A stretch of 64,000 bases of DNA, taken from the NCBI RefSeq assembly GCF_002886045.1, contig NZ_CP025791.1:1696001-1760000 (forward strand), written 5' to 3'. Position numbers and translations under genes: made by a program. The notes beneath the pieces were generated by a model. It saw nothing but the letters and a program-made list of their open reading frames with translations. It did not search any database and had not been told where the DNA came from. Source of the stretch: Flavivirga eckloniae (GTDB lineage Bacteria; Bacteroidota; Bacteroidia; Flavobacteriales; Flavobacteriaceae). The stretch's first letter is position 1, and each line of letters opens with the position of its first letter. Below are positions 5,605 through 64,000 of this stretch, piece by piece.

Positions 5605-5659
5605 GTTTATTTACAATAACTACTCATTTAATATTTTTTAGCTTAGATAATGATCTATA

Positions 5660-7083: not shown

Positions 7084-8217
7084 TTATCTTAGTTTTGCAA
7101 TAATTAAAATAGGATTGTCATCTTCCTTGCATTTAAGTTCATTTCTTTTGTTTTCGGTTAAATCAATGGGAGAAACAAAATCAACAATACACTCTTTATC
7201 AATATATTTGGGCCAAAAACTAGGAAACTCATTAATCAAATCATTTTTAATTCCAAAACTATTTTTTTTATTATTAAGATAGTCATCTTCAGTAAATTTT
7301 TGATGGTATATAAATTTATTTTCATCTTTAGTAAATAAACCTTTATACATGGCATTATCATAATCATAACTAATGAAAAAATAATTAGAAGTTTCACTAA
7401 TACCAATTGGTCTAATTTTCGTTCTTAATTTATTGCCTCCAATTATACTTACGGCATCTTTAGTACTCATTTCATAATCACCTAAACTAATATTCCAGTG
7501 TGGAATTAATTCATTTTTAGTAACTTGATAAATAGTGTCAATAAACGGTTCTTTATAAAATACTTTATTATTCATTAGATACGGTTTTCCTACATAAAAC
7601 AAAGCTTGCTTTAAATTTGAATAGCTTACATTATTTCTAGATTTAAATGATTTAACTTTAGTAAATGTTGAGTCGAAAACAGCTAACATAGTTCTATTTT
7701 CTTCTTCATACATTTGTTTTTGAGGCACAAAAAAATATCCTTCGTTATTTTTACAAATTCCAGCGGGAGGAAATGTTAGATTTATTTTTTCAATAAACTT
7801 ACCTTTATAATTAAATACCTTTATAGATTCATAATCGGAGATATATAAATATTCATTTACAGGGTCAACGTGAATACTCATAATAGCATTGTATTCATGA
7901 GGTCCATTACCAACGGCATTAATTTTATTAGAGAAATTTCCTTTTCTATCAAATATTAGAATTGTTTTCTTTGATCTAAAAATGATATTCTTTTCGTCTA
8001 TATGAATCAAATCTGGCATAGGTCCAATTATAGAATGCATATTCGTTTCTAATAATACAATCTCAGTGTCATTTGCTATTTTAGATAAAAAGCAATTTAT
8101 AGAAGATTTTTTTGGGTTAATTTCTAATACCGGAATTGAATTTTTATTTTTTGAATTGCATTGAACAAAAGAAAAAAAGCAAAGCGCCAAAAAAAAACTA
8201 TAAATTACTAAACGCAT
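7084..8217 (-). CDS. 6-bladed beta-propeller lipoprotein (DUF5128/BF3164 type)
   Basis: The N-terminus is a lipoprotein signal (FFSFVQCNS, Cys20). The body carries the marker of Bacteroidota 6-bladed propellers, a GxGPxEY element (AVGNGPHEYNAIMSIHVDP), followed by regular blades (EYLYISDYESIKVFN, GYFFVPQKQM). These proteins are typically found with NVEALA-type peptides and thioredoxin-like lipoproteins, as here. The start overlaps the end of the upstream gene by 20 bp, so the two are translationally coupled. It is AT- and Lys/Asn-rich like its two upstream partners. The role is unknown; binding of a peptide or surface ligand is a reasonable guess. Confidence 0.75.
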   Translation of the reverse strand: MRLVIYSFFLALCFFSFVQCNSKNKNSIPVLEINPKKSSINCFLSKIANDTEIVLLETNMHSIIGPMPDLIHIDEKNIIFRSKKTILIFDRKGNFSNKINAVGNGPHEYNAIMSIHVDPVNEYLYISDYESIKVFNYKGKFIEKINLTFPPAGICKNNEGYFFVPQKQMYEEENRTMLAVFDSTFTKVKSFKSRNNVSYSNLKQALFYVGKPYLMNNKVFYKEPFIDTIYQVTKNELIPHWNISLGDYEMSTKDAVSIIGGNKLRTKIRPIGISETSNYFFISYDYDNAMYKGLFTKDENKFIYHQKFTEDDYLNNKKNSFGIKNDLINEFPSFWPKYIDKECIVDFVSPIDLTENKRNELKCKEDDNPILIIAKLR

Positions 8218-10896: not shown

Positions 10897-12411
10897 TTAG
10901 TTTTTTATTATTGCATTAAAGTCTTGTTTTATCGTATTACCATTAATAAAATTATATAGCGTTAATTGTTGTACTTCGTAATAAAACGTCCAATAATTTT
11001 GTAGACTTAATATATATTGTTCGGTTGCCAATTGCCAAGCTTGTCGTGAGCTACTCAGGTTTAATAAATCTATACGTCCAGATAAAAAACGTTTTTCAGT
11101 AATCTTATAAGATTCTCTTGCAATTTCACTGGTTCGTAATGCGCCTTCAACCAATTCTTTTTGAAGGTTAAAATCTATAACTTTTAGAGTAACTTGCTGT
11201 TTGTAAGCATCCTCATCTTGTTGTAACTCTATATCTAAAACTTCTTTATTCATTTTAGCCGTTTTAATATTTCCTTTACGTTCTCCCCAATCCAGAATAG
11301 GAACGTTTAATTGAATCGCTACCATTTGTTGATCCAAGAAGCCCCTGTAAGCATTGCTAAAAGTGTTGGACTGTTGGTTTAAACCATAACTGGCTGTTAA
11401 GGACAAATCGAAGCGGTTATCTTTAATAGCTTTATCCAAATCTCGTAAAGCCTCTACTTTTCGCAATTTTAAATTTATTATATCTGGATTATTGCTATTA
11501 GCTAGGTTGATGGCCTCACTTACATCTATTTGTAAATTGGAAATTAATTCAGGTAATTCGGGGATTGTATTTGAAGGAAGGTCGTCTCTTAAAAACAACT
11601 TTAATTCGGCTTCTGCCTTTTCCAAAGTCTGCCTACTTTGTGTAGCATTAGTATTGGCATTATATACATCTAGTTCTAAATTAAGAACATCGTCCTTTTC
11701 GATAGAGCCTAAATCGTAGCGCCTTTTTCCTATTCTGAATAGTTTTTCTGCCGATGTTTTATTTTCATTAGCAATCTCTAGTTTTTTACTCGCTAAAGCC
11801 CAATTAAAAAACAGATTAACTGTTTTTAAATTAATAGTCTGTAATTCGTAGATAAACTCTTGCTTTGCCTTTTCGTATTTAAGAGGCTCCGTTTTTTGTT
11901 CCCATTTAAATTCATTAAAAGCCATTAAAGGCTGCATCAAACCTATTCTAAAGGGTGTTGCATTGTAATTTTCTATATCTAACTCTCCAAAATTTTCTAA
12001 CCTATTAAACTCTGAATTAATAAACAAGTTGGTTCCTGTAGCTCTAATATTTTGGGTAGCAGTAAGATTCGCGTAGCTATTTAAATTTTGTTGCGATCTA
12101 TAAACATCTATATTTTGTTCGGAATCGTAACGTTGTATTACAGATCTGTTATAGGTTAATGGACGAAGACTTAAATCAACTTTAGGCAACAAACTTGATT
12201 TAAACGATCTGAACTCCCAATAGCTAACGCCATACTTTCGCTTGGCCTTAAAAGCATCTAAAGAGTTTTTGCTTGCTAAATTTAAAACATCATTAAGCGT
12301 TATACTTTGCCTAGGTTGTATTGAAGCATTAGTTTGTTGAGCGGTATTGTTATGTGTACAAACCACACAGCATATCACAAAAACTATATTTCTTAATTTA
12401 ATGTGTAGCAT
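10897..12411 (-). CDS. TolC-family outer membrane efflux protein
   Basis: 504 residues, normal for the family. After an N-terminal signal segment it has the family's opening (ITLNDVLNLASKNS) and long alternating helical and strand segments in two structural repeats (for example TINLKTVNLFFNWALASKKL, YKITEKRFLSGRIDLLNLSS). It would form the trimeric outer-membrane channel of a tripartite pump. Its start overlaps the end of the RND permease gene by 14 bp, so the two are translationally coupled. The adaptor is two genes further upstream. Confidence 0.88.
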   Translation of the reverse strand: MLHIKLRNIVFVICCVVCTHNNTAQQTNASIQPRQSITLNDVLNLASKNSLDAFKAKRKYGVSYWEFRSFKSSLLPKVDLSLRPLTYNRSVIQRYDSEQNIDVYRSQQNLNSYANLTATQNIRATGTNLFINSEFNRLENFGELDIENYNATPFRIGLMQPLMAFNEFKWEQKTEPLKYEKAKQEFIYELQTINLKTVNLFFNWALASKKLEIANENKTSAEKLFRIGKRRYDLGSIEKDDVLNLELDVYNANTNATQSRQTLEKAEAELKLFLRDDLPSNTIPELPELISNLQIDVSEAINLANSNNPDIINLKLRKVEALRDLDKAIKDNRFDLSLTASYGLNQQSNTFSNAYRGFLDQQMVAIQLNVPILDWGERKGNIKTAKMNKEVLDIELQQDEDAYKQQVTLKVIDFNLQKELVEGALRTSEIARESYKITEKRFLSGRIDLLNLSSSRQAWQLATEQYILSLQNYWTFYYEVQQLTLYNFINGNTIKQDFNAIIKN

Positions 12412-22235: not shown

Positions 22236-22979
22236 TTAAATTTGAGAAGGGTTTATACCCGCCATTTTGCGCACGTTTTTTGTAAGATGCGCATGGTCGA
22301 AATAGCCATTATCAAAAGCGGTATGAAGCAAACTTTTTTCTGGGTATTTGGAAATACTTTCCATTGTTTTAGTAAACCTAACGATGGTATGATACTCTTT
22401 CATAGTAACCCCAACAATCATTTTAAAACCTCGTTCTAACTGTCGTAAACTAATATGATGTTGTTGAGCTATTTGAACCAGGTTAATGGCTTGAAAAGAC
22501 GACCTTATTGAAGCACAAACAGAAAGAATTAGGTCGTTCTTATGGTTATTCGCAAAATACAATTGGTTTTTTAAAAACTCCTCAAGAAACCGAATTTTAT
22601 CAATTCTATTTTTTTTGTTTAATAGCTCATCCAAAAACAAAGCATTTAGATCTGGTAATACTTCTGAAGCATGGATTGTTTTATTTTTTATTTCAGAAAG
22701 CGGAAAATTTGAAATAGAACTAAACAGTCCTGTTTTAAAGCGAATACCAAATGTTTCTGAATCTTGTTTGGAAACAACTTGTTTGTATTTGGTCATCATT
22801 CCAGAAATCCTAATACTATCATCTGAAAAACTGTTTGAATCATCACCACAATCAAAAACAATATCTACACATCCATCGGGCAGGATTTTAGATGCTGTAA
22901 TTCCATCATTTGCAGACACCCAAAAAGTATCGATATACGGGTTTAATAATGGTGGCGGTATGTATTCCTGAAAACTCAT
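22236..22979 (-). CDS. AraC-family regulator with N-terminal DUF6597-like sensor
   Basis: 247 residues. The N-terminus (YIPPPLLNPYIDTFWV, then ILPDGCVDIVFDCG) is typical of the DUF6597 domain found in AraC-type regulators. The C-terminal about 95 residues are the two-helix AraC DNA-binding domain (LVQIAQQHHISLRQLERGFK, then HTAFDNGYFDHAHLTKNVRK). It heads the VOC/methyltransferase unit and is divergent from the GH31 gene at 23366. It has no obvious link with the polysaccharide locus. Confidence 0.85.
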   Translation of the reverse strand: MSFQEYIPPPLLNPYIDTFWVSANDGITASKILPDGCVDIVFDCGDDSNSFSDDSIRISGMMTKYKQVVSKQDSETFGIRFKTGLFSSISNFPLSEIKNKTIHASEVLPDLNALFLDELLNKKNRIDKIRFLEEFLKNQLYFANNHKNDLILSVCASIRSSFQAINLVQIAQQHHISLRQLERGFKMIVGVTMKEYHTIVRFTKTMESISKYPEKSLLHTAFDNGYFDHAHLTKNVRKMAGINPSQI

Positions 22980-23365
22980 TTTAATTGCTGTTAAATATAA
23001 TAAATGTGGAGAGATAAGTTTTCACTTTTGTTGACACGCATACCATACACATAATACTGTTCCTTTTTAAGAGTCAAAAAGCTAAGTAGACAATTACGAA
23101 AACTAAGTAAATACCTAATTATTAAAAATATCCCTTAACTGTATTTTTATTGTGCATTTAATAAAAAAACGGTACAACTTTCCATCTCTATTTTACAAAC
23201 AATCATTCTCACCCTACAACAGAATCATTTCCCCCTAACAAAAGAAGGCTTTTTCTAGAAATTTGATATCCCCCATGTACCCCGTACAATACCAAGCATT
23301 ATTTCATAAAAACACAAAAAGAAACCATACAACCCTAATACTAATTATTTAACAACATATTACAC
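22980..23365. other. Divergent intergenic region, 386 bp
   Basis: It holds the promoters of the AraC-type gene (minus) and of the GH31 gene (plus). The only recognised content is the C-rich operator-promoter module at 23211-23265, annotated separately. Confidence 0.7.
23211..23265 (+). promoter_or_regulatory. PUL operator-promoter module (GH31-DUF1080 unit)
   Basis: Half-site 1 is CCC at 23212-23214 and half-site 2 is CCCCCT at 23231-23236. The -7 box GAAATTTG (23258-23265) ends 29 nt after half-site 2. The core AATCATTTCCCCCTAACAAA is nearly identical to the module in front of the gene at 44859. It is the same architecture as six other sites in this window. Confidence 0.8.
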
Positions 23366-29296: not shown

Positions 29297-30577
29297 TTAT
29301 TTATCAACAGAAGTCATATTATCAATTTCCTTCTTACGTACCAAGGCTTCCAGAAAATAATAATCTGCATAATTTATAGGTTGATCTACCTGTCCAGCAT
29401 TTGGCTCATTATAGTATACGTGATGCGGAATACTTCCAACACTATGTTTTAAAATGAAATAGTTTTTTTCCTCTTTTGCTGCTCTATACTTATCTGTAGA
29501 TAGCACGTTTACAATATCATTAGCATAATTATAATAATGCTCTGCATTTATTTCAACCAATGTACTCAATTCAAAAAAGGCAGAAGCTGTAATTGCAGCA
29601 GCAGATACATCTCTCATTTTACCGAATTTCTCAACAGGAATCTCTATATCTGGATTATAGTTTTCCTGGCCTACATGGTAGTCCCATAAAGGCACTTTGT
29701 CTTCCGGAATAAACTTAGAATTCATAATGTATGCAGCAATGTTTTTTGCCATTTCTAAATACTCCATATTTTTAGTTTCGCGATAACACATAGTAAAACC
29801 ATACAATCCCCATGCTTGTCCGCGAGACCAACTACTATTATCTGAATAGCCCTGAGACGTTTTCTTTTTGATAAGATCTCCTGTCTCTGGATTAAAAACT
29901 ATGGAATGGTAACTTGAATAATCTGGCCTGTAATGATGTTTAATGGTAGAATTAGCATGTACGTTTGCTATCTTTTTAAAAGATGTATCGCCCGAAAGTT
30001 TTTCGGCTTTGTATAGCAATTCTAAATTCATCATATTATCTATAATCACTGTAAAATCATATTCTTCATCCTCTCCCCAAGGCGTAAACTTATCCCATGA
30101 TAATATGGTTTTTGTTTTTTCATTAAAACGCTCAGATAGGGTTTTTGCAGCATTTATAAGAACGGTTTCATATTTTTTATCTTTTGTTAAACGCAACGCA
30201 TTTCCATAACTGCAATTAATCATAAAACCAATATCGTGTGTTCCTTTATACCATTGAATGGTATCTAATGTTTCGGTCCAACGAATAGCTTCTTTTTTCC
30301 ATTTTTCTTCACCCGAAAGCTCATATAAATACCACAACGAACCTGGAAAAAAACCACTAACCCACCCTTCTTTGGGGTCTAAATGGAGGGTTCCGTCTGC
30401 GTTTCTTGTATTTGGAAGTTTATCAAGCGTGTTTACCTCACTCAAAATATGGTTATATTGAGTTTCTGCTACACTAATATTATCACTGTAAATTGATTTG
30501 TCTTTTTTTTCTTTTGCAGGAACACAACTTACTGTTAATGTAAATAACAGGATAATTACTCTAATACTTAAACTCAT
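29297..30577 (-). CDS. GH88 unsaturated glucuronyl hydrolase
   Basis: 426 residues, normal for GH88, with a lipobox at the N-terminus (TVSCVPAKE, Cys18). The (alpha/alpha)6 barrel carries the two family Asp residues in THDIGFMINCSYG (Asp115) and VIIDNMMNLELL (Asp180), and SSWSRGQAWGLYGF follows. The enzyme removes 4,5-unsaturated uronic acid from the non-reducing end of products made by polysaccharide lyases. This points to a uronic-acid-containing substrate. It is the first gene of its unit and has the shared operator-promoter module upstream. Confidence 0.92.
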   Translation of the reverse strand: MSLSIRVIILLFTLTVSCVPAKEKKDKSIYSDNISVAETQYNHILSEVNTLDKLPNTRNADGTLHLDPKEGWVSGFFPGSLWYLYELSGEEKWKKEAIRWTETLDTIQWYKGTHDIGFMINCSYGNALRLTKDKKYETVLINAAKTLSERFNEKTKTILSWDKFTPWGEDEEYDFTVIIDNMMNLELLYKAEKLSGDTSFKKIANVHANSTIKHHYRPDYSSYHSIVFNPETGDLIKKKTSQGYSDNSSWSRGQAWGLYGFTMCYRETKNMEYLEMAKNIAAYIMNSKFIPEDKVPLWDYHVGQENYNPDIEIPVEKFGKMRDVSAAAITASAFFELSTLVEINAEHYYNYANDIVNVLSTDKYRAAKEEKNYFILKHSVGSIPHHVYYNEPNAGQVDQPINYADYYFLEALVRKKEIDNMTSVDK

Positions 30578-30658
30578 TTTAACTCTTATTTGATTATTTG
30601 ATTTTAAAAAATTGATAGCTTTACTTTATCTATTTTTAAACAATAGAACATCTAAACA

Positions 30659-30712
30659 CAAAATTTGAATATTTAAGAGGAAAGGACAGGGTATAATGTG
30701 CCCAAAAAAGGG
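30659..30712 (-). promoter_or_regulatory. PUL operator-promoter module (GH88 unit)
   Basis: On the minus strand half-site 1 is CCC (30712-30710), the spacer includes GCACATTAT, half-site 2 is ACCCT (30692-30688) and the -7 box AAATTTTG (30666-30659) ends 29 nt later. It has the same architecture as the six other modules. Confidence 0.78.
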
Positions 30713-30907
30713 ATATATCGAGCTATACAGGAAATTAAACTATATCTCAATATAAAATGATAGGATGTGTGTGTTTTAGAATGAGCTCATTAACAATGAC
30801 ATAAACCACTGAAAACATTTATATTACAGTTTTAAATCTGTCTTAAAACCACCATAAGGATTTTATGGTTCTAAATTGAAGTTTACATATTTAGAATATG
30901 TTTTTTT

Positions 30908-30947
30908 AATGTTTTTCACCTATCTAAATAGATAGGTGAAAAACATT
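30908..30947 (-). terminator. Perfect 18-bp hairpin after the lyase gene
   Basis: The arms 30908-30925 and 30930-30947 pair perfectly (AATGTTTTTCACCTATCT) around the loop AAAT. It lies 81 nt beyond the stop of the lyase gene on the minus strand. There is no long T run behind it, but the stem itself is strong. Confidence 0.7.
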
Positions 30948-31027: not shown

Positions 31028-33745
31028 TTATTTCTTTAATATATATTTATCAGAGAAACTTATTTCTGGTATTTTTTCGCTTCTATAGCTAATATTTCCA
31101 TCTCTTACAATAAGATTTAAAGGTCCCACAGAAGAAACAGTAATTCCTTTTGTTTTTATAGATGTCTTATTCCCTAAATAAATATAATCGATCTCATTAT
31201 TTTTTGTCAATGATATAACTGCATATCCACCTTCAAACTCAATATCTTTATATGTTATTTTTTCATCAGAAATCGATGAGATTACCAAATAACTGCCCGT
31301 TAAGGTCTTAACAGAAACAATAACATCTCCTTTTGGCGATGACCATACTTGTTCAACCTCTTTAATGTTTTGTTTGTTTGGCCTATAGGCTTCATAAACA
31401 CCAATAAATGGTTGAGACCATGCTTCTTTGTTTCGATGAATAGCAACTGTTTTTCTAGTATCTTCACTAATGTTTTTATGCAATTTATTTTTAAAGTTTA
31501 AAGGACTTGTTGCGGTTACATACACATTACCTTTCGTTTCTGGATAAAAAGCATTTAACATTACGTCTTTCCCTTTAAGATCTTGTGATAAAAACTGAAA
31601 TTTCATAGAATTTTTACTTGTATAAGACAACTTATCAGAGTAATACTGAAACCCGGAACCTTCTTCTGTGAATAGATTGGTACTCTTACCTTGCAATGTT
31701 TCGTTTTCTTGTGACAACACCTTCAATTCGTTACCATTGGCATGAAACAAATAATCATTTCGTTTTGGATGGTCTGAATGAAAAATATCAATATAAAAGC
31801 CTCCAGAATCCGGCTGTCCTATAATACCAGAAATTCTTCTTTGATTAGTCTCATTAAATTTAAAAGAAACATCGGTAAAAGAACAAAGTGATGAAACGCC
31901 TTCTTCTTTTATCTTGGGTTCCATAACATTTAAAGTTAAATTTGAATGCTCTTTATCCAATTCTTCTAAATTAGGAATAACCGTATTTGCTGCCGCAGAA
32001 CGCACATAGTACTCTGTCATTAATTTGCTTCCATAAGGATACCGTGTTCCACTGTGAGACGATATGATTCTTCCTGGCCCAAAAAACTCCATATCTATTC
32101 CTTTACTTTGGCTATGAACATAATTACCTGCGTTTACCTGTAACATAAGACCATTCTCTGAGTCTGAACTTCTTAAACGTTGTAAATACAAACCTGAAAA
32201 ACTCACATGATCTGTACGGTACATATAATCGTTTATTTTATGATTGCTTAAAAGTTGAGGCACAAAATAAAGTAGCTGTTTATAATCTGCTTTGCGTTTA
32301 TAGTGTCCCCTATCAATCATAGACTGCAAATAACTACTTAACAACTTTTCTTGTTTTACTAAACCTGCCCTATGTGCACCTGCAATAGCAAATTCAAGAT
32401 CTACAGCATCTGGATAAGTAGATGGCGAACAATCTCCAAAAGAAACTAAAGTACCATCGGGAAAGGTAAATCTAAATTGGGCGTATTGTGCTTTTAAGAA
32501 ACGGGGGAATTCCTGCCAAGGGTTGTATCCATTAACATCTAATGCCATGGCTGCTCTACAAGCTGCTCTCATTGGATAGGCATGATACGCTGGCGGCTCT
32601 TTCCAAAGTCCTGTTTCTTCATCAACAGAATTTTCATGAAATAATTTCCATGGTACTTGACCAAGCCAAATATCTTCCCAGATACCTCCTGGCTGTCTTA
32701 GCTGTGGGTTTTCATTTAAAAATACCTCCATACATTCATCACGCTTTGCCTTATCATCTATTGCTAAAGCCATCCAAATAAGCTCGCTTGCTTTCATGGT
32801 ATGGTTATTTGGAGACCAAGCATGTTGCGCCCATCCACCTTTAAACGTACCATCTTTTAAAAATTTATAAAAAGCACTATCCACTATAGAAGTAATGTCC
32901 TCGCCTTTTAGATACCCATCATCTTTTAATTTTTTTAAATAGTCCTTTTGATTTTTCACAATATAGTCATGCGCAAAATCATAACTCACTACCATGGTTT
33001 TGTAATTCGGATCATTTAAATCATGTCCGCCTAAAAAGCCATAGGGTCTATCGAGGTCATCACCAAGCTTTGGTGCATTTTGAAAATAAATCCCTAAAAC
33101 CCATTGCATAAAAATATCTGCTGCAAGTTTTGCATATTTCTTTTCTCCTGTTAAATAATACAAAGTGCCAGCCTCTGCACCGATATCTGAAATTTTTCTA
33201 TTCCAGTCATGTATTAAATTTCCTAATAAAATATTCTCTGTTAAATTTGGATTTGAGCGAGAAGTGACCGTGTACTTATCATCTTTCCAATATATCGGAT
33301 AGTCTTTCAACTCCGGAAATTTTGGTTGACTGTGGTCAGACATATGTGAATGCCCACCATAAGCACTTGTTCTAACAGTAGGTACAGGCGATAACGCTTC
33401 ACGAGTTTCTAGGTTGATATTATGATCGTATTTATTTTCGGAAGGCTCTAAAGTAAACCCACTATAATAAGGCCCCCAATGCATCAGCATACGACTTAAG
33501 ATCCATTGAGGGTCCTTAAGGTGTTGATCCGCTAAAGGATCTATTTTGGCTTTTATATCATCAAAACTACGCTGCATCCATTCATGATCCTGAATATTTT
33601 TAAGAATTCTTTTTTTGTCTGATTTTTTTGCCAACACACGAGGATGCTCATTTTCTGGCTCTAAACTCGTTGATTCGCATGAATACAATATCCAGAGAGG
33701 CACGAAAAAAAGAAATAGTAGTTTTGAATATTTTAATTTTATCAT
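31028..33745 (-). CDS. Heparinase II/III-like polysaccharide lyase or dehydratase, lipoprotein
   Basis: 905 residues with a lipobox (WILYSCESTS, Cys23). The first about 480 residues are helical and look like an (alpha/alpha)n toroid (SDIGAEAGTLYYLTGEKKY, GGWAQHAWSPNNHTMKASEL with conserved N-N-H). The rest is a beta-sandwich like heparinase II/III (LQVNAGNYVHSQSKGIDMEF, GPGRIISSHSGTRYPYG, with His and Tyr). Known relatives include ulvan- and alginate-type lyases and dehydratases; PL40-like is one option I cannot confirm. It would make the unsaturated ends removed by GH88. It has its own promoter with a TAAATTTG -7 box (33863-33856) and no copy of the C-rich operator. Confidence 0.72.
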   Translation of the reverse strand: MIKLKYSKLLFLFFVPLWILYSCESTSLEPENEHPRVLAKKSDKKRILKNIQDHEWMQRSFDDIKAKIDPLADQHLKDPQWILSRMLMHWGPYYSGFTLEPSENKYDHNINLETREALSPVPTVRTSAYGGHSHMSDHSQPKFPELKDYPIYWKDDKYTVTSRSNPNLTENILLGNLIHDWNRKISDIGAEAGTLYYLTGEKKYAKLAADIFMQWVLGIYFQNAPKLGDDLDRPYGFLGGHDLNDPNYKTMVVSYDFAHDYIVKNQKDYLKKLKDDGYLKGEDITSIVDSAFYKFLKDGTFKGGWAQHAWSPNNHTMKASELIWMALAIDDKAKRDECMEVFLNENPQLRQPGGIWEDIWLGQVPWKLFHENSVDEETGLWKEPPAYHAYPMRAACRAAMALDVNGYNPWQEFPRFLKAQYAQFRFTFPDGTLVSFGDCSPSTYPDAVDLEFAIAGAHRAGLVKQEKLLSSYLQSMIDRGHYKRKADYKQLLYFVPQLLSNHKINDYMYRTDHVSFSGLYLQRLRSSDSENGLMLQVNAGNYVHSQSKGIDMEFFGPGRIISSHSGTRYPYGSKLMTEYYVRSAAANTVIPNLEELDKEHSNLTLNVMEPKIKEEGVSSLCSFTDVSFKFNETNQRRISGIIGQPDSGGFYIDIFHSDHPKRNDYLFHANGNELKVLSQENETLQGKSTNLFTEEGSGFQYYSDKLSYTSKNSMKFQFLSQDLKGKDVMLNAFYPETKGNVYVTATSPLNFKNKLHKNISEDTRKTVAIHRNKEAWSQPFIGVYEAYRPNKQNIKEVEQVWSSPKGDVIVSVKTLTGSYLVISSISDEKITYKDIEFEGGYAVISLTKNNEIDYIYLGNKTSIKTKGITVSSVGPLNLIVRDGNISYRSEKIPEISFSDKYILKK

Positions 33746-33903
33746 TGCGATTAATTTATTTTAAAAACACCTGCTTTTGTTATAAAAATACTCGTAAATA
33801 TGATTAGATAATAGTATAAATAAATTAGTTTTTTTAATACTAAATAACCTTACAGCAAATTTATTCACTAAGCCCTAGGATATATCGTTGTGTTTTATAA
33901 ACC

Positions 33904-33953
33904 ATTAAAGGTGTATTATTGTCAACAAATTATTGAAATAACACACCTTTAAT
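33904..33953 (-). terminator. Stem-loop after the T9SS LamG-like gene
   Basis: The arm ATTAAAGGTGT (33904-33914) pairs with ACACCTTTAAT (33943-33953) over a 28-nt loop. It lies between the stop at 34025 and the lyase promoter, so the lyase is a separate unit. Confidence 0.6.
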
Positions 33954-34024
33954 ACTAATAAAAACAAAGTATTACACTTAATTTAAACACGGAAATGATT
34001 GTTTCACTTTAACTTAAAATGAAT

Positions 34025-34978
34025 TTAATTTTTAACAATTTTTTTCACGGCAACCTGTCCGTTACTAGTTGTAATTCTTGCCAAATACACGCCTGCTCTT
34101 AAATTGGAAATTGAAACGTTAGCCGCATCTTTACTAACATAATCTGCACTTAAAACTTGTGCTCCAATAATGTTGTACAAACTAAGGTTAAAATTAGCAC
34201 TTTCTTTTAATGCTATTTTTAAATCATTTTTCGCTGGGTTTGGAGAAAAAGAAACTTCTTTATTAAAAACATCATTATTTGATAAGGTTGCAGATTCTGT
34301 AATCTTTAAATCATCCATATAATGATCTTGATGATTTGTTCCATTAGTTCCCATCATTGTTCCTATAACAATTGTATCAATTACTAATTGATCTATATCA
34401 AGGTTATCTTCAGTAAGAAGATCACCTCCATCAATTGTAAATGTTATTTTACCTGTTCCGGCATTTGTACCTCCGTTAGGATCAATAATAATTTGCATAG
34501 TATGCCATGCCTCGCGAGAAGGAGTTGCACCTGTATTTATGATATCTGGATGACCAGCAATCTTAATTTCTCTTTTTAATACATCGGAATTTACTCTTAC
34601 TATAGAAATCTTGAAATTATCATTATCGCCATTTTTCCCCAGTATATCAAACCATTCTTGGCTGGTACTAGTATTAACTAATGCTGAAGAATAAAACCTA
34701 TAAGTGAAAGTTGTAACATAATCAGCTGTAGTTGGAGTAGGTAAAACCAATGTTGATTTTTTCCAATTACCCGTAGAAGTAAAATGTAATACATTATTAG
34801 TTCCAGATGTAGGATCAGCAACTATTGTTGTAGTAACTTCTGGGTCTTGTGATGTCCAAGTTCCATGTGCAGCTGTTTCGTAATCATAATCCAAAATAGT
34901 TGTTTGTGCAAAACTGCTTGCAGTAACCAAAGTCAGTGCTAAAAAAGCACCTTTAACAAATTGTAATTTTTTTCTCAT
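34025..34978 (-). CDS. Secreted LamG-like protein with T9SS sorting domain
   Basis: 317 residues: a signal peptide (LALTLVTASSFAQ), a jelly-roll domain of about 205 residues (LDYDYETAAHGTW, AWHTMQIIIDPNGG, YMDDLKITES) and a type A T9SS C-terminal domain (VSFSPNPAKNDLKI to VAVKKIVKN). It should be released or surface-bound through type IX secretion. The jelly-roll resembles the C-terminal domain of the PKD lipoprotein at 54929-56131, so both may bind the same glycan; no catalytic motif is visible. It has its own operator-promoter module. Confidence 0.82.
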   Translation of the reverse strand: MRKKLQFVKGAFLALTLVTASSFAQTTILDYDYETAAHGTWTSQDPEVTTTIVADPTSGTNNVLHFTSTGNWKKSTLVLPTPTTADYVTTFTYRFYSSALVNTSTSQEWFDILGKNGDNDNFKISIVRVNSDVLKREIKIAGHPDIINTGATPSREAWHTMQIIIDPNGGTNAGTGKITFTIDGGDLLTEDNLDIDQLVIDTIVIGTMMGTNGTNHQDHYMDDLKITESATLSNNDVFNKEVSFSPNPAKNDLKIALKESANFNLSLYNIIGAQVLSADYVSKDAANVSISNLRAGVYLARITTSNGQVAVKKIVKN

Positions 34979-35005
34979 GATAATATAGTTTTATAAATTA
35001 TATCA

Positions 35006-35060
35006 CGAATTTCTATTTTTAGAACACGAACTATAGGGGGATATGTTTCTGAATAAAGGG
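35006..35060 (-). promoter_or_regulatory. PUL operator-promoter module (T9SS LamG-like gene)
   Basis: Minus strand: CCC (35060-35058), spacer ending AAACATAT, CCCCCT (35040-35035), then the -7 box GAAATTCG (35013-35006), which ends 29 nt after half-site 2. The -7 box has one change from the consensus. Confidence 0.75.
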
Positions 35061-35180
35061 TAAAACGACCTCATTCTCTAATAATATTATGAATTACATT
35101 ATTCTATTAGAAACAAAATCAACAATTTACCTTCTACAAATACAAGATTTACAAATCCTACTAATTCTTATTAAAACATC

Positions 35181-41203: not shown

Positions 41204-41504
41204 ACTTTCTTTATTATAAAAATTACAGTATTAATGAAAAGAGAATATCCAAAAAGTTCTATTTTTTCCATTCAAGCTCAGTAGTGAATTAAAACACAAC
41301 ATTAAACATGAAGGTTTCGACTTTAGCTTGTCTTGAGCGGAGTCGAAAGGCTCAACCAGATATTCATTTTTATTTACCTTTTTAGACAATCTCAATTCTT
41401 TTCGATTAAAATACCGAGCTTTACAAAACTACCTTTTTACCGCTGTGAAGACAGGGTACAATGTTGTTACAACAGGGTCAAATGTTTTCTTTCTTCACTT
41501 AGGT
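41204..41504. other. Intergenic 301 bp, long leader of the GH31-symporter-GH2 unit
   Basis: It holds the operator-promoter module at 41424-41477 and then a leader of about 215 nt with a hairpin (arms TTTCGACT 41315-41322 and AGTCGAAA 41341-41348). The hairpin's GTCTTGAGCGGAGTCGAAAG stretch resembles dispersed flavobacterial repeats. Confidence 0.6.
41424..41477 (-). promoter_or_regulatory. PUL operator-promoter module (GH31-symporter-GH2 unit)
   Basis: Minus strand: CCC (41477-41475), spacer TGTTGTAACAACATTGT, ACCCT (41457-41453), then a perfect -7 box TAGTTTTG (41431-41424) ending 29 nt after half-site 2. It is the best match to the TAnnTTTG consensus of the seven. Confidence 0.8.
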
Positions 41505-44401: not shown

Positions 44402-44447
44402 GGTTTCCTAATTTTATTGTTTGCTGTATTCATCTGTTATTGTACTA

Positions 44448-44502
44448 CGAAAATAGATTTTCAACAAACAATAAATAAGGTGTAACGTTGCTAACAAAGG
44501 GG
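44448..44502 (-). promoter_or_regulatory. PUL operator-promoter module (flavoprotein unit)
   Basis: Minus strand: CCCC (44502-44499), spacer TTTGTTAGCAACGTTA, CACCT (44482-44478), then the -7 box TATTTTCG (44455-44448), which ends 30 nt after half-site 2. The spacer between half-sites is one shorter here and the distance to the box one longer, so the total is kept. Confidence 0.75.
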
Positions 44503-44729
44503 TATATGTTCTATATTGGATAATACAGCACTTGTAGGTTAAATCTCTACCATAAATACCTTAATTAATTTCTCATAATTATAAATTCTCCGATTCACTA
44601 AAAAATGTACAATAAACATGCTATTTTTCCCAAAACTAACAAGATATCAAACTCTTATTTCTTAATTTTTGTAAGACTAGCCTTAAACTCTATTTAAACA
44701 ATAAATCAAAAAACATCTAACACTCCGCC

Positions 44730-44783
44730 CCCCCAAATAGAATCATTTCCCCCTAACAAAAAAGAAGTTTTATTACAAATTTG
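44730..44783 (+). promoter_or_regulatory. PUL operator-promoter module (beta-helix unit)
   Basis: Half-site 1 is CCC at about 44730-44732 inside a C run, the core is AATCATTTCCCCCTAACAAA (44741-44760), half-site 2 is 44749-44754 and the -7 box CAAATTTG (44776-44783) ends 29 nt later. The core matches the site at 23223-23242 base for base. Confidence 0.8.
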
Positions 44784-44858
44784 TTAAAAAAAATTAACCT
44801 TTTACTAACCCCTAAATAATTATGAAAAATAGTTATGTAAAATTAAAACCCAATAATT

Positions 44859-47303
44859 ATGTTGAATAAAAAACTACTATTTAAATACATTATATTTCCA
44901 ACCCTTTCATTGCTCTGTTTACCTTTAATAGCGCAACAACCAGAAAGTGATTTGTATAAACAATTTGTAGCCTCTAAAACAACTGGAGACCAATCTATTT
45001 TACCCGATTTTTCCTATGCAGGCTATAAGAACGGAGAAGAACCCATTCCATATATCACGGGTCCCGTTTTTAACGTAAATGTTTATGGAGCATTACCTGA
45101 TGACGATCTAGAAGATTACGACGGTATACAAGCCGCCATAAACGCCGCACAAGATGCAGGTGGGGGTGTTGTCTTTTTTCCAAAAGGACGGTTTTTAATT
45201 AATGAACGAAAACCAGTTGTTGGAGATGCACCTAGAGCTCCAATTACAATTACTGGAGACAATATAGTACTTAGAGGATCTGGGTCTGGAGAAGACGGAA
45301 CTGTTTTATACTGCCGTTACAATAGAACCAAATGGCTTGTCGCTAACATTCAAGCTGATGGTGGTGGATTCTCTCGTACAGAATTGGCAGATGTTACAGG
45401 AGGAAATGAAAGAGGAAAATTTGAATTAACAGTGTCTACTACAGCGGGTATGAACGTTGGAGATCTTGTGATGCTGGAATTAACAGATCCTACAGCATTT
45501 AATGCTGAGTTTTTAGCGCCTTACCAAGCGGACTTTGATACCTATAAAGACACTGCTACTTTATTAAAAGGCGGTAATTTTGTTCAAGAAGCACATGAAA
45601 TAACGGCTATAAATGGTAATATAATAACTTTTAAAGACCCCTTAAGATATAATGTCGATATTACTTATAAATGGGTCATAAAATCAATTACCAGAAAAAC
45701 AGGATTCGGTATCGAATTCTTAAGGATGGTTGGTAATGCTACTCCCGATTTTGAACATCATAAAAACGCAGATCAAAGAGATGTTATAAATCCTGATACT
45801 GCACTTAGTGATTATGAATTCCATGATGGAGGTTTTAAAGCTATCTCAATAAATCGTTATCAAAATTCTTGGGTTAGAAATGTAGTTCTAGAAAGTTGGT
45901 CTAATGCCATTGGTTTTGGGTACTCAACCACGTCAACAGTTACAGATGTATTGATTACAGGTAACACAGGTCATAATTCTGTTCAATCATTTAAATCTAA
46001 TAATCTTTTATTTAGTAGAGTAACAGATGAAGCTAGTACCTGGCATGGTATTGAAGTATCACATTTATCAAGTGGTGCAGTTGTTAGAGATTGTAAATGG
46101 AGATCATGGACGCCTGTAGATGTGCACTCAGGTCATCCTTATTGTAATCTTGTAGATAATTCTGAAGGCGGGATGGCAGGTACTCCTGGAGGTGATATAA
46201 CAGGTTTTCTTCCTCATCACGGTCGTGAGTTAGTTTTTTGGAATTATAATGAAATTGATACAGAGGCAAGAGTACATGACTTTTGGAATGAAAAAAAGAA
46301 AATTTTAACTCCAATTGTTGTTGGTTATGAAGGTAATAGCTCTTTTGTTGAGGCCACTTTGGCACATCACGAATCCCATGGAACGCATGTTAAAACACCT
46401 TTTTTGTACGATGCACAACTTGAGCTTAGACTTGGTGTAGATCCTGTTTGGATAAAAGAAATTGCGACACAAACAGTCGCCGATGCAGATGAGGATGGCG
46501 TATCTGATGCAGATGATACTTGTCCTGGTACTCCTTCTGGTGTAACCGTAGATGTTAATGGATGTGAAGTGTTCTCATTACCTAAAGACAATTTTAAAAT
46601 ATTACATACTAGCGAATCATGTCGTACTAGTAATAATGGAACCATATCTATTGAAGCTGTTCAAAATTTAAACTACACAGCTACATTATCTGGAGGAAGT
46701 ACAGATTCTAAGAATTTCACAAATACTATTTCTTTTGAGAATCTTGAAGCAAATGCCTATACGGTTTGTATAACTGTTGAAGGAGAAAGCGATTATGAAA
46801 CTTGCTTTAACATTACCATTACAGAACCAGAGGATCTAGGAGTAACAACAAAAGTAGATCAAGGTAAAAAACAAATTGATCTGACACTTTCTGGTAGTAC
46901 TGATTATGTTATTACTGTTAATGACATCGTATATCAGACCTCTAAAAATAAAATTTCTATACCTCTTAGTAATGGTGTTAACAATATAGTTGTTAAAACT
47001 GGTAAAGATTGTCAAGGTATTCACAATCAAAAAGTTCTAATAACGAATCAAATGGTTAGTGGTATTCACCCTAACCCTATTACTAGTGGTGATCTAACTA
47101 TTGCACTAAATGATAAAAGCACTAAAGATCCCCAAAATGTTGAGGTTGTTGTAAATAGTATAAGTGGTAAACAACTATTAAACCTTAAAGCGACTAATAA
47201 AAAAGACATAAAAATCAATATAGATGATTTAACAAAGGGGCTATATTTTATTAGTATAAAAACAAAAAGCGAAGTACAAACCTATAAAATTATAAAAAAA
47301 TGA
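44859..47303 (+). CDS. Secreted pectate-lyase-like beta-helix protein with T9SS domain
   Basis: 814 residues. A signal peptide is followed by a right-handed beta-helix (YGALPDDDLEDYDGIQAAIN, GGGVVFFPKGRFLIN, NVVLESWSNAIGFGYSTTST) to about residue 490; a DUF4955 label is plausible. Then comes a calcium-binding TSP type 3 stretch (DADEDGVSDADDTCPG), an Ig/SprB-like domain (SGGSTDSKNFTNTISF) and a type A T9SS sorting domain (GIHPNPITSGDLTIAL to TYKIIKK). It should act outside the cell, where beta-helix proteins of this kind are often lyases or hydrolases of uronic-acid glycans. Catalytic residues were not assigned. The gene overlaps the next by 4 bp. Confidence 0.82.
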   Translation: MLNKKLLFKYIIFPTLSLLCLPLIAQQPESDLYKQFVASKTTGDQSILPDFSYAGYKNGEEPIPYITGPVFNVNVYGALPDDDLEDYDGIQAAINAAQDAGGGVVFFPKGRFLINERKPVVGDAPRAPITITGDNIVLRGSGSGEDGTVLYCRYNRTKWLVANIQADGGGFSRTELADVTGGNERGKFELTVSTTAGMNVGDLVMLELTDPTAFNAEFLAPYQADFDTYKDTATLLKGGNFVQEAHEITAINGNIITFKDPLRYNVDITYKWVIKSITRKTGFGIEFLRMVGNATPDFEHHKNADQRDVINPDTALSDYEFHDGGFKAISINRYQNSWVRNVVLESWSNAIGFGYSTTSTVTDVLITGNTGHNSVQSFKSNNLLFSRVTDEASTWHGIEVSHLSSGAVVRDCKWRSWTPVDVHSGHPYCNLVDNSEGGMAGTPGGDITGFLPHHGRELVFWNYNEIDTEARVHDFWNEKKKILTPIVVGYEGNSSFVEATLAHHESHGTHVKTPFLYDAQLELRLGVDPVWIKEIATQTVADADEDGVSDADDTCPGTPSGVTVDVNGCEVFSLPKDNFKILHTSESCRTSNNGTISIEAVQNLNYTATLSGGSTDSKNFTNTISFENLEANAYTVCITVEGESDYETCFNITITEPEDLGVTTKVDQGKKQIDLTLSGSTDYVITVNDIVYQTSKNKISIPLSNGVNNIVVKTGKDCQGIHNQKVLITNQMVSGIHPNPITSGDLTIALNDKSTKDPQNVEVVVNSISGKQLLNLKATNKKDIKINIDDLTKGLYFISIKTKSEVQTYKIIKK

Positions 47304-54318: not shown

Positions 54319-54457
54319 AATAATGTATTTAATACAAATATTATAATAATATACTATTTATGCAAATTAGTATGGATTTTTATTTTAACATTAGAAAACA
54401 AGCTATTGTATTATAAATTAGAATTATACAATGAAATCAAAAATTAGTAATAGCAAC

Positions 54458-54928: not shown

Positions 54929-56131
54929 CTATTCTACGTATGATACTTTAATATTATCCAAATAATAATCATTGTTACCATTATGGCCAAAACGTATTCT
55001 ATCAAAATTATGATAAGGTGCAGTAGCTAAATTATTTAGAACAACAGCACTACCAGGATTTCCATCAAATGTATAGGTAGTAGTTTCTGCAATCGGATCT
55101 ATAACGACTTTAATAGCATGCCATTCATTTAAGGATAAAGGTGCAAATGCTTCACCAACTCCACCACCTTCTACTCTCATTCTATAACTCCCTACAGTAC
55201 CTGAATGTTGAAAAGCTGTAGATCCAGTTACATCCTTACCAGCTTCTGAATCAAGAACGATATAATCACTCCAACCAGTAGGGTTATCTGTAAAATAATT
55301 AAATTCAAAAGTTACGACTACATTATCTGGTGTCTCAGGGAAATTTCTATTATTAGAATCCCATCCAGCAGAAACAGTACTATCATATTTCAGTACTTTG
55401 TTAGCTGGGTTTGTTGGATCTTCAATAATACTTAGTGCACCAGGATATGATTCTGTCCAATCAGAAAGGTCTCCTGTTTCAAAATCTTGATTTAATACCA
55501 CAACAAATGTCCCTACAATTGAAACTTGCGTTTGAGCGCTAATATCAGCAAAACCTGTAGCTTTTGCCGTTACAATAACAATATAATCACCATTTTCTGC
55601 ATAAGTATGTACTGCAGTAGATGTAGTCGTATTTTCAACTGCTGTTCCATCACCCCAATCTATATCATAATTAGTAGCATTAAGTGCTGATAAAGTTAAA
55701 GTAACTGTATCTGTATCATTAGGGTCTACATTTGAATTTATTGTTAGATTAGAAATTAAGCCAACGCTAACTGACTTGTTTACAGCTTGATTAACTAATC
55801 CATCTTTTCTTGCTACAGATTTAATGGTATAATTACCAGCGTCGACATAATTATAGCTTTCTATACCTGTAGTTGACTGCGTTGTTATACCATCTCCCCA
55901 AGAAATTTCAAAATAATCATTCCCTTCTGCTGTAGCTACAATAGATACGGCTCTCGATATGTGATCATCTATAGTAATCTCTAATGTTGCATTTTCAATA
56001 ATTGGTGCCTCACTATATTCATCATAACTGATCTCTTTATCACAAGACACAGTAAGTAACGTAAAGCACAATATTGTAAAAAACATGTGTGTAATTCTTT
56101 TTGTTTCCATTTTTTTATTTTTTAATTTCAT
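54929..56131 (-). CDS. PKD-domain surface glycan-binding lipoprotein
   Basis: 400 residues; an ATG at 56110 is an alternative start. The lipoprotein signal (CFTLLTVSCDKEI) is followed by two PKD domains (about 48-210; EISWGDGITTQSTTG, YDIDWGDGTAVEN) and a LamG-like domain (VVVLNQDFETGDLSDW, LNEWHAIKVVIDP, YYLDNIKVSY). This is a typical SGBP position directly after SusD (23 bp). Its last domain resembles the T9SS protein at 34025. It probably binds the polysaccharide at the cell surface. Confidence 0.83.
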   Translation of the reverse strand: MKLKNKKMETKRITHMFFTILCFTLLTVSCDKEISYDEYSEAPIIENATLEITIDDHISRAVSIVATAEGNDYFEISWGDGITTQSTTGIESYNYVDAGNYTIKSVARKDGLVNQAVNKSVSVGLISNLTINSNVDPNDTDTVTLTLSALNATNYDIDWGDGTAVENTTTSTAVHTYAENGDYIVIVTAKATGFADISAQTQVSIVGTFVVVLNQDFETGDLSDWTESYPGALSIIEDPTNPANKVLKYDSTVSAGWDSNNRNFPETPDNVVVTFEFNYFTDNPTGWSDYIVLDSEAGKDVTGSTAFQHSGTVGSYRMRVEGGGVGEAFAPLSLNEWHAIKVVIDPIAETTTYTFDGNPGSAVVLNNLATAPYHNFDRIRFGHNGNNDYYLDNIKVSYVE

Positions 56132-60725: not shown

Positions 60726-60846
60726 AATTGTCCTTGTGTTAAAGTTTTTAAATTAAAAAGGAATGTCTTTTTCATTTAGTTTTAGTTTTAGTTATTAGTT
60801 TTGAGTTTTTATAATAATTTTTAACTAAATAGTATTTTAGTTGTAC

Positions 60847-60902
60847 CAAATATTAGATATTTCAATAACTATTTTAGGGGTAAATGTTGTAAAATAAGGG
60901 GG
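60847..60902 (-). promoter_or_regulatory. PUL operator-promoter module (SusCD operon)
   Basis: Minus strand: CCCCC (60902-60898), spacer TTATTTTACAACATTTA, CCCCT (60880-60876), then the -7 box AATATTTG (60854-60847) ending 29 nt after half-site 2. It lies between the SusC start and the HTCS stop, about 120-177 bp from the SusC ATG. Confidence 0.82.
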
Positions 60903-61006
60903 TAGATAATTAACAAATCAGCTTTAAAACTATCATTGTCAGTAAATTAAAACAATAACAACATCAATCTATAATATACCTTGTAAATAGTAGACTATAC
61001 ATTAAT

Positions 61007-64000
61007 TTAAGCGTTGGAATTATTGGTAATATATTCTGAAGGGGAACATTTAAACTGTCTTCTAAAACAAGTTCTGAAATACTTTAAATCATTAAATCCT
61101 ACCTCATAAGCTATTTCGGAAATTGACATTTGATTTTGAACTAAAAGTTGAGCGGCTCTTTTAATACGAATAACACGAATAAACTCTGTAGTAGACTGCC
61201 CTGTTAAACTTTTAATTTTCCTAAAAAGAACAGATCTACTCATTCCTATCTCTTCTATAAAAGTACTTACGTTAAAATCTGAATTGGATAAATGCCTCTC
61301 TATACAATTGATGGCCTTTTCCAAAAATTCATCATCTTTAGAGTTTAATACGACTTCTTTTGGGTTGATACGATAATTACGAATAAAATATTCATGGAGT
61401 TTTTTTCTAGACTCCATGAGGTTCTTCACTTTTAATCGTAATATACTTGGCTTAAATGGTTTATTAATATAGTCGTCTGCTCCCGTTTGTAAACCGTCTT
61501 TCTTAAAGATCAATGATGTTCTGGCTGTTAATAAGATAATTGGAATATGGCAGGTATTTATATCTTTTTTTAATTTACTACAAAGTGATATCCCATCCAT
61601 TTCTGGCATCATAACATCACTAATTATTAAATCTGGGATAAGCTCTGTAGCTAATTCATAACCAATTCCGCCATTCGATGCTTCTTGAATATTATATTCT
61701 TCGCTGAAACAGCTTACAATAAATTTTCTTACATCAAGGTTGTCTTCGATAATAAGTAACAATGGAAGATTTTTATTAGTTACTTCTTTATCTGGTTTGT
61801 TAATAACATCTGGCTTCTTCCATTTTCTCTCACTATAATTAGCAACATCCTCACCATGCTTAAATGCTTTAAAGATCTCATTGCTATTTAGATGTTTTTT
61901 CCCTAATGGTAATTCCACGGTAAATAAACTCCCCATACCAAGTTCTGACTCTACTTTTATATTACCATGATGTAACTCGACTAACCTTTTAGTTAAAGTG
62001 AGCCCTATCCCACTTCCGTTACTAAAATTTTGACTTGTTTCTATTTGAAAAAAACGTTCAAAAATAAGATTAGTATGTTTGGGTTCCATGCCGTATCCAT
62101 TATCCTTTATTGAAAGGCAAACACGATCAATGTCATCATTTTTTGGTGAAATCTGAGAAATTGTAAAAGAGATTTCACCTCCATCTGGCGTGAATTTAAA
62201 AGCATTTGATAAAAGGTTATAGAGTACAATTTCCATCTTATCTCTATCAAAATATACATGATCCAACTCTGTTTTATTACTAAAGTTATAAGTAATACCT
62301 CTAGATTCTGCTAATTGACGAAAGGAAATAAAGGTCTCATTACAAAACTTTACAATGTCCCCTTTCGCAGCTCTTAGTTTTAACTGCCCTATTTCATCCT
62401 TTCGGAAATCCATAATATTATTAACATGGCGCAATAATTTTTGAGCATTGGAACGTACTAGTGAAATTTCTTCTTTAATCCCTTCAATTAAATCTCCTTT
62501 TTTTTGCAAAATATTATCTAAAGGCCCCAATATTAAGGTTAATGGAGTTCTAAGCTCATGAGAGATATTTGTAAAAAACCTAAGTTTTAATTCGTATATT
62601 TCTTCGTCTTTTTCTCTTTCCTTTATTTCATTTTGCAATGCATTTCTATCATTAATTCTAAGACGCGCATATCTCCATAAAAGATACCCGATAAAAACAC
62701 AAAGAATAAAGTACAATAAAAAAGCCCACCAGGTACTCCATGGCGGTGGCAATATTTTAATCTTGATAGAAGTTCCTGCCTCGTTCCACGTGTGACTATT
62801 ATTTGACGCTTTTACCTTAAATACATAATCTCCAGATTCAATATTTGTAAAGGTGACTTGGCGCCTATTACCAATATGTAACCAATCGTCATTAAACCCT
62901 TCAAGCATATAAGCATATTCATTTTTTTCTGGTTGAGAATAATTAAAACCTATAAACTCAAAGCTGAATAATGACTGATCATAACTTAAGATTATTTCCT
63001 GTGTTTGCGACAAAGGTTTGGTAAGAGGTGCATTTTCATCTCCTATTTTCACCGTCTTTTCGTCGATTTTAAATTCGGTAAGTATTACAGGTGGCGGGTT
63101 ATTATTTTTCTTTATTTCTTGAGGGTTAAATATATTAAACCCGTTAACCCCTCCAAAGATAAGCTCCCCATCACTGCTTATGGCATAGGCATCATAATTA
63201 AATTCATTACTTTGAAGTCCATCATGGATATCATAATTATCAAACGTTTTAAGATCCATATTAAATTTTGATAAACCGCCATGTGTACTTAACCATAAAT
63301 TCCCATAATTATCGGGAAGAATGCCATAAACCACATCACTAGGTAGCCCCTCATTTTTTCTATATTTAATAATGGTTGAGAGATCATTTTCTACATATAC
63401 TAACCCCTCTCCTTCTGTACCCAACCAATAATTACTTTTATTATCTTGATAAATACAAAGCACATTTTCATTTATAGACGCATTAATTTTATTAAAATGG
63501 TCATATAAAATCTCTCTTTTTTCAATATCAACAAGCCCTAGCCCATTAGACGATCCTACTAAAATTTCTTTTTTATAATTCTCAAAAATGGTAGTGATCC
63601 AAACATAACCTTCTTTCTTTTCAGGAAATCTAACAAACTGTTTTAATTTTGGATCAAACATATTGATACCTGTATAGGTACCCATCCAAATGTTTTGGTT
63701 ACTATCTTCTAAAAGTGTAAATACATAATTGGAACCAATACTTAAACTATCAGAAACATTATTTTTATAATGTTCGAATTTGGCAGGGCTTTTGTTTGGA
63801 TTAAAATAGTTTACACCACCTCCAAAAGTCGCTATCCATAAGTTCCCTTCATCGTCTTGAATAACATCATGAACATTATCCTCACTTAAACTGTTCTTAT
63901 TATTTTCATCATGTTTAAAGTTTATAAATGTTCCTTCAGATCTATTAAAATAATCCAATCCACCACCTTCGGTACCAATCCATAAATTTTTATTATGGTC
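61007..64000 (-). CDS. Hybrid two-component system regulator (HTCS), 5' end missing
   Basis: The frame stays open to base 64000, and the residues before 63958 (NLWIGTEGGGLD) continue the propeller, so the true start is outside the window; a TTG at 63958 is not a start. The visible order is: two-component regulator propeller repeats (GNLWIATFGGGVNYFNP), a Y_Y_Y domain (YAYMLEGFNDDWLHIGNRR), one TM segment (about 405-425), HisKA (NISHELRTPLTLILGP, His near 465), a HATPase (IKDNGYGM, GSGIGLTLTKRLVE), a receiver (ISDVMMPEMDG, Asp near 780) and a C-terminal AraC-type HTH. It senses a glycan fragment in the periplasm and should activate this locus. Confidence 0.95.
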   Translation of the reverse strand, partial: DHNKNLWIGTEGGGLDYFNRSEGTFINFKHDENNKNSLSEDNVHDVIQDDEGNLWIATFGGGVNYFNPNKSPAKFEHYKNNVSDSLSIGSNYVFTLLEDSNQNIWMGTYTGINMFDPKLKQFVRFPEKKEGYVWITTIFENYKKEILVGSSNGLGLVDIEKREILYDHFNKINASINENVLCIYQDNKSNYWLGTEGEGLVYVENDLSTIIKYRKNEGLPSDVVYGILPDNYGNLWLSTHGGLSKFNMDLKTFDNYDIHDGLQSNEFNYDAYAISSDGELIFGGVNGFNIFNPQEIKKNNNPPPVILTEFKIDEKTVKIGDENAPLTKPLSQTQEIILSYDQSLFSFEFIGFNYSQPEKNEYAYMLEGFNDDWLHIGNRRQVTFTNIESGDYVFKVKASNNSHTWNEAGTSIKIKILPPPWSTWWAFLLYFILCVFIGYLLWRYARLRINDRNALQNEIKEREKDEEIYELKLRFFTNISHELRTPLTLILGPLDNILQKKGDLIEGIKEEISLVRSNAQKLLRHVNNIMDFRKDEIGQLKLRAAKGDIVKFCNETFISFRQLAESRGITYNFSNKTELDHVYFDRDKMEIVLYNLLSNAFKFTPDGGEISFTISQISPKNDDIDRVCLSIKDNGYGMEPKHTNLIFERFFQIETSQNFSNGSGIGLTLTKRLVELHHGNIKVESELGMGSLFTVELPLGKKHLNSNEIFKAFKHGEDVANYSERKWKKPDVINKPDKEVTNKNLPLLLIIEDNLDVRKFIVSCFSEEYNIQEASNGGIGYELATELIPDLIISDVMMPEMDGISLCSKLKKDINTCHIPIILLTARTSLIFKKDGLQTGADDYINKPFKPSILRLKVKNLMESRKKLHEYFIRNYRINPKEVVLNSKDDEFLEKAINCIERHLSNSDFNVSTFIEEIGMSRSVLFRKIKSLTGQSTTEFIRVIRIKRAAQLLVQNQMSISEIAYEVGFNDLKYFRTCFRRQFKCSPSEYITNNSNA

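Follow-up and report, generated by a model that had tools for sequence, protein, structure and literature searches.

A PL40-like lyase gene without the operator shared by ten units of a polysaccharide utilisation cluster in Flavivirga eckloniae

Within a uronate-polysaccharide utilisation cluster of Flavivirga eckloniae, one member, a gene for a 905-aa PL40-like lyase (31028..33745, minus strand), is probably controlled differently from ten units that share an HTCS-type operator. The window analysed here is a 64,000-nt stretch of a single-contig genome of 5.67 Mb (genome bases 1696001-1760000, GC 33%). We favour, at a probability of about one half, a reading in which the lyase is an HTCS-independent basal unit of its own that also receives partial read-through from the unit starting at 34978.

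By Pfam, the cluster genes of the window include an HTCS, SusC, SusD, a PKD protein, GH88, GH31, GH2 and GH43 enzymes, an esterase, FAD oxidoreductases, a symporter and the lyase, and a GntR-led operon holds a KDPG-type aldolase and a ROK kinase. The HTCS, a hybrid two-component regulator (61007..64000, continuing to window coordinate 65104, minus strand), contains Reg_prop, Y_Y_Y, HisKA, HATPase_c, Response_reg and HTH_18 domains. Rightward of the window the cluster continues with two PF14099 polysaccharide lyases after the HTCS, an ADP-ribosylglycohydrolase-family gene, GH27, GH29 and others. On one side of the lyase is a GH88 unsaturated glucuronyl hydrolase (29297..30577, minus strand; PDB match 3wiw at E 3.9e-99, with a Pfam score of 23.4 bits, below the cut-off of 26.6), whose predicted substrate would be the lyase products. 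On the other, upstream, side is an operator-bearing gene for a 317-aa protein with a T9SS sorting tail (34025..34978, minus strand).

The shared operator consists of two C-rich half-sites 20-22 bp apart, followed at a fixed distance by the -7 region. The first-pass annotation had counted seven units bearing it in the window, including both units that flank the lyase; we confirmed this count and found three more just right of the window, ten in total. Sites were chosen by eye in upstream sequences and with a pattern from two sites, aligned by hand and built into a three-block matrix, which was scored by leave-one-out (LOO) over 82 kb, comprising the window and L043, a 20-kb stretch to its right. 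On the plus strand, operators precede the GH31 unit (starting at 23366; operator 23207..23268, LOO 35.7) and the DUF4955 unit (44859; 44726..44786, 33.1). Those on the minus strand belong to the GH88 unit (30577; operator and -7 region 30658..30719, 22.0), the 34978 unit (operator and -7 region 35004..35067, 28.0), a GH31/SSF/GH2 unit (41203; 41422..41484, 21.0), an FAD oxidoreductase unit (44401; 44446..44508, 24.0) and the SusC/SusD unit (60725; 60844..60909, 34.5). The three operators of the right flank (L043 positions 3706-3770, 5615-5679 and 7218-7279; window coordinates 65706-69279) precede the two PF14099 lyases and the ADP-ribosylglycohydrolase-family gene.

LOO scores of the ten operators run from 21.0 to 37.9. 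The procedure placed nine at their own anchor and that of 44401 one base off, with the same offset of the -7 block in all; the best non-operator score in the 82 kb, once the ten sites and their one-base shifts are set aside, is 16.7, inside susC. The direct-repeat period in the hand alignment is 21 at seven sites, 22 at two and 20 at one, and by LOO scoring it lies one base off the hand alignment at five of the ten. If up to three mismatches are allowed, a 20-base core has five sites in the genome, all in the cluster (reversed control, one), and a 14-base half-site pattern with one mismatch is unspecific (44 sites versus 50 in the control). A -33 TTG at 15-25 nt is found in none of the ten operator promoters, as expected if these promoters depend on an activator. 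Given its position and the confinement of the core to the cluster, the adjacent HTCS is presumed to bind the operator and activate these units. Such a clean set of ten sites allows switched and unswitched genes of the cluster to be predicted.

HTCS motifs of Bacteroides are described as direct repeats with a mean spacing of 21 bp (PMC3878776). Our system resembles the regulons of that account in its direct-repeat operator of about 21 bp, its cluster-local regulon, and its AraC-type HTCS with a Reg_prop sensor and adjoining susC/susD; it differs in a putative half-site of its own, ACATTTNCCCCTAA-like sequence, and in the omission of one lyase gene. Five units score below the ten: the HTCS (13.6), SASA2 (11.7), GH29 (4.3), the GntR operon (3.0) and AraC (-2.4). 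The weak operator-like word of the HTCS (13.6) lies about 300 bp upstream of its start (window coordinate 65410, minus strand), making autoregulation possible.

Before the lyase, the operator is absent. The first-pass annotation had noted a lack of C-rich half-sites at the expected distance there, and the matrix agrees, with an upstream score of 3.6 that is equalled by 34 of 200 dinucleotide shuffles. The same annotation described a good -7 box. This candidate, TAAATTTG (33856..33863, minus strand, read from 33863 to 33856), is indeed present and stops 110 nt before the lyase ATG, but the adjective is harder to uphold. The sigma-A promoter of Bacteroidota also has a -33 TTG at its own spacing, and TTG is absent 17-23 nt upstream of the lyase box. 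Furthermore, in the 330-bp upstream stretch, chance alone yields TAnnTTTG, the sigma-A consensus reported for a flavobacterium (PMC9723704), in 35% of 1000 shuffles, and TAAATTTG in 6.1% of another 1000. With no -33 TTG and a near-chance TAnnTTTG, a promoter of the lyase's own is putative.

The lyase starts 279 bp from the stop (34025) of the co-directional T9SS-tail gene, and the hairpin said to separate the two genes is there (33891..33966, minus strand; arms 33891-33920 and 33937-33966), with a minimum free energy (MFE) of -29.0 kcal/mol, a z-score of -7.1 and none of 200 shuffles as stable. It is likely a full or partial terminator. The lyase transcript likely ends at a 40-nt palindrome with 19-nt arms after the lyase stop (30908..30947; MFE -25.7, z -7.5, again 0/200 shuffles as stable). 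Taken over both strands and across gaps of unequal length, the 75-nt minima on either side of the lyase unit are -26.6 and -27.5, compared with -25.9, -22.5, -33.1 and -17.9 at the four convergent gene ends of the 82 kb; three divergent gaps are all weaker than the lyase-unit ends (-15.0, -18.9 and -19.2), and co-directional gaps vary a great deal, the strongest at -35.6. That extreme belongs to the GH29 case right of the window (L043 positions 11547-11828, window coordinates 73547-73828), where the gene stands after this very strong hairpin and has no operator, a second case resembling the lyase. We rejected the idea that the upstream hairpin is a repeated mobile element, as its only genome-wide match at E < 0.01 is its own reverse match.

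With the operator absent and strong hairpins on both sides, direct activation of the lyase by the HTCS is not expected. On the lyase strand, however, both hairpins lack a clear U-tract, so termination may be partial. A terminator scan that apparently allowed no bulges (11 hits versus 8.5 in shuffles) listed the downstream palindrome on the plus strand only and left out the upstream hairpin; given this omission of a hairpin lacking a U-tract, read-through could be large.

These features fit a scheme in which the HTCS would bind the operator and activate the cluster units, while the lyase, as its own transcription unit between the two strong hairpins, would fall outside the direct HTCS regulon for want of the two-half-site operator in its promoter region. 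A weak promoter of its own would give it a basal expression independent of the HTCS, and upon induction of the cluster some transcription from the 34978 unit might partially read through into it. Such basal expression might in turn serve to produce the inducing oligosaccharide.

It is also possible, though we consider it less probable, that the lyase is simply induced with the cluster by read-through from 34978, the hairpin merely lowering its level through attenuation or processing. The two genes are co-directional and 279 bp apart, the hairpin lacks a clear U-tract and is missing from the terminator scan, and in a flavobacterium partially terminated stretches form a class of their own among transcribed regions (PMC9723704). 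Homologues add to this. From 50 loci examined we kept 39. Left out were frames shorter than 700 aa, those lacking an upstream frame and those whose last 200 residues repeated a homologue already in the set. Upstream frames that were short or truncated at the edge of a locus entered the count, which may have led to wrong values for some gaps. All 39 homologues have a same-strand upstream gene, and 35 start within 150 bp of it (31 at up to 60 bp and four at 60-150 bp), which indicates that the family is normally co-transcribed. Against a plain read-through, the hairpin is very stable, as stable as those at three of the four convergent gene ends, and the gap of the window lyase exceeds that of 38 of the 39 homologues. 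With 31 of these no more than 60 bp from a same-strand gene, the solitary arrangement of the lyase is uncommon among its homologues. Four have longer gaps (174, 224, 250 and 364 bp); one of them, at locus L033, has a strong hairpin (-28.9) in the gap, which the other three lack (-7.4, -15.5 and -13.9). The two nearest relatives follow the preceding gene at -8 and 0 bp, in lyase-rich stretches with PL8 and heparinase II/III-like proteins in both and GH88 in one.

No close orthologue of the lyase was found in the family, genus and class genome samples or among genome and viral contigs, which gave 23 and 4 pattern stretches, respectively, none of them a relative. Of 299 genomes sampled from the family, 30 have a match, as have 3 of 12 from the genus (our own genome included in both), and the matches listed outside our own genome are all 23-32% identical. 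At E 1e-40, 5 of 395 sampled class genomes matched, our own among them, the best at 30%. For comparison, relatives of the GH88 enzyme reach at least 54% identity among the matches listed from a sample of 397 family genomes, and those of the DUF4955 protein outside our own genome reach up to 46% over more than 100 residues in the 12 genus genomes.

The first-pass annotation had proposed that the lyase is expressed constitutively at a low level and makes the inducer. This is supported in part. Direct HTCS activation is not expected, as said above, and low constitutive expression is plausible by analogy with the xylan cluster of Segatella copri, where the genes of an HTCS and a GH5_21 endo-xylanase are reported to be constitutive within an otherwise induced cluster (PMC11784079). 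In both cases one gene for a polysaccharide-cleaving enzyme would stand outside the induced pattern; there this was measured by RNA-seq, whereas here it follows from a missing operator, and substrate and enzyme class differ. A review likewise describes the HTCS of two glycosaminoglycan clusters as constitutive and triggered by unsaturated disaccharides (PMC9067506). The role of inducer-maker fares less well: the operator stands before both predicted PF14099 polysaccharide lyases beside the HTCS, one of which has a T9SS tail, so the PL40-like lyase is not needed to explain inducer production, and leaky expression of these two units could be the first source of inducer. If standing expression of the lyase is real, it would offer a compact case of first-inducer production from a polymer that cannot yet be imported. 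The gain would be modest, since a constitutive gene for a polysaccharide-cleaving enzyme in an HTCS cluster is already known. A stronger version seems doubtful to us: a lyase normally co-transcribed with its cluster would in this lineage have been uncoupled from the HTCS and insulated by hairpins, to act as a permanently present scout that determines the threshold of induction, while the HTCS switches the main units. Codon adaptation was tried as a sign of low lyase expression and proved uninformative, the value of 0.606 being mid-table (rank 20 of 40 genes); recent import from outside found no support, GC (0.346) and GC3 (0.255) being ordinary for the cluster.

Control by another regulator, such as the AraC-type protein at 22236, the GntR at 53566 or a factor encoded outside the window, is unlikely. 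Both regulators lie in the region in addition to the HTCS, and more units in or near the cluster are also without a strong operator. On the other hand, nothing else in the genome matches the lyase intergenic stretch at E < 0.01, and we found no candidate site for another regulator before the lyase, the gntR palindrome being the one motif tested. This palindrome, TGTATTAAATACA, lies directly before gntR (54324-54336), has its sole exact match in the window there and is a candidate gntR autoregulatory site. As an operator of the lyase it was rejected: the intergenic stretch holds none, and the window contains 12 matches versus 9.0 expected.

Least probable of all is weak direct control through a degenerate HTCS site, a reading we regard as very unlikely since the two box1-like words before the lyase (33919-33908, 6.2 bits; 33887-33876, 5.3 bits), although in the same orientation, rarer than chance as a pair (two such matches in 8 of 1000 shuffles; 1 of 1000 at 18-34 bp) and accompanied by CGATATATCC, common to the lyase upstream DNA and the GH88 half-site, are 32 bp apart instead of 20-22, place CCT 20 rather than 28 from TTTG (hand count), include one word within the hairpin stem and reach the full score of only 3.6. 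Box1-like pairs of this level also occur in two of seven other regions that have no strong operator (GntR, 7.1/5.6; GH29, 6.1/5.6), with SASA2 near it (7.8/4.8) and the HTCS, AraC, 6832 and Wzy regions below; by eye, the GntR and GH29 words too lie in strong hairpins, which shuffling does not keep.

As for the enzyme, Pfam assigns it to PF05426 (29.5 bits versus a cut-off of 22.2). The only match of a PDB sequence search at E 0.01 is 9vtk, the PL40 ulvan lyase Uly1040 (E 1.2e-27). An AF2 model (pLDDT 80.1, pTM 0.81) again finds 9vtk first in a fold search (E 3.2e-38, TM 0.67/0.75), with PL17 alginate lyases next, and it has the (alpha/alpha) toroid plus beta-sheet fold of Uly1040. Identity to Uly1040 in the fold alignment is 19%, below the > 30% at which homologues of Uly1040 were gathered (PMC12915356), so we call the lyase PL40-like rather than PL40. 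The N-terminus looks like a lipoprotein signal, judged by eye from its LYSC.

Tyr305, Asp358 and His485 are named as the catalytic residues of PL40 for Uly1040 (PMC12915356). E301, Y305, D358, H485 and Y511 of that enzyme correspond to E383, Y387, D438, H544 and Y571 of the lyase, all five of which are kept in 36 of 36 aligned sequences, comprising the window lyase and 35 of the 39 homologues. The same source assigns charge neutralisation in PL40 lyases to Asn245 with Trp/His246. For this pair, NNH at 313-315 fits and is probably the equivalent; the alignment, which is uncertain here, put A309-W310 in that place, and the model has pLDDT < 50 at 306-313. His487, linked to a metal, is described as highly conserved in PL40 with rare substitutions (PMC12915356). 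Its position is Gln546 in our lyase, the only Gln among the 36 sequences (29 His, 4 Ala, and one each of Gln, Ser and Thr). Judging from these residues, the predicted lyase probably has activity, though its metal binding may be altered. Compared with Uly1040, then, it keeps the fold and the five named residues, whereas it has low identity, Gln546 for His487 and no sulfatase nearby: the Pfam scan of 40 window and flank proteins found no sulfatase family, which makes ulvan doubtful as the substrate. Because the top PL17 hit, 7bjt, carries the title of an oligoalginate lyase, the enzyme may equally well be exo- or oligo-acting, and would then use up inducer instead of making it, or be endo-acting.

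Two further observations concern other proteins of the cluster. The highest codon adaptation among the 40 genes belongs to the PKD protein (54929-56131; 0.727) and the T9SS-tail protein upstream of the lyase (34025-34978; 0.723), which suggests that these two would be strongly expressed when induced. Residues 541-672 of the DUF4955 protein (132 aa, 46479-46874) align at 74% identity with the C-terminal region of the second PF14099 lyase, where the matching stretch (genome bases 1764555-1764950) ends at the stop of the gene, so this lyase is without the T9SS tail of the DUF4955 protein.
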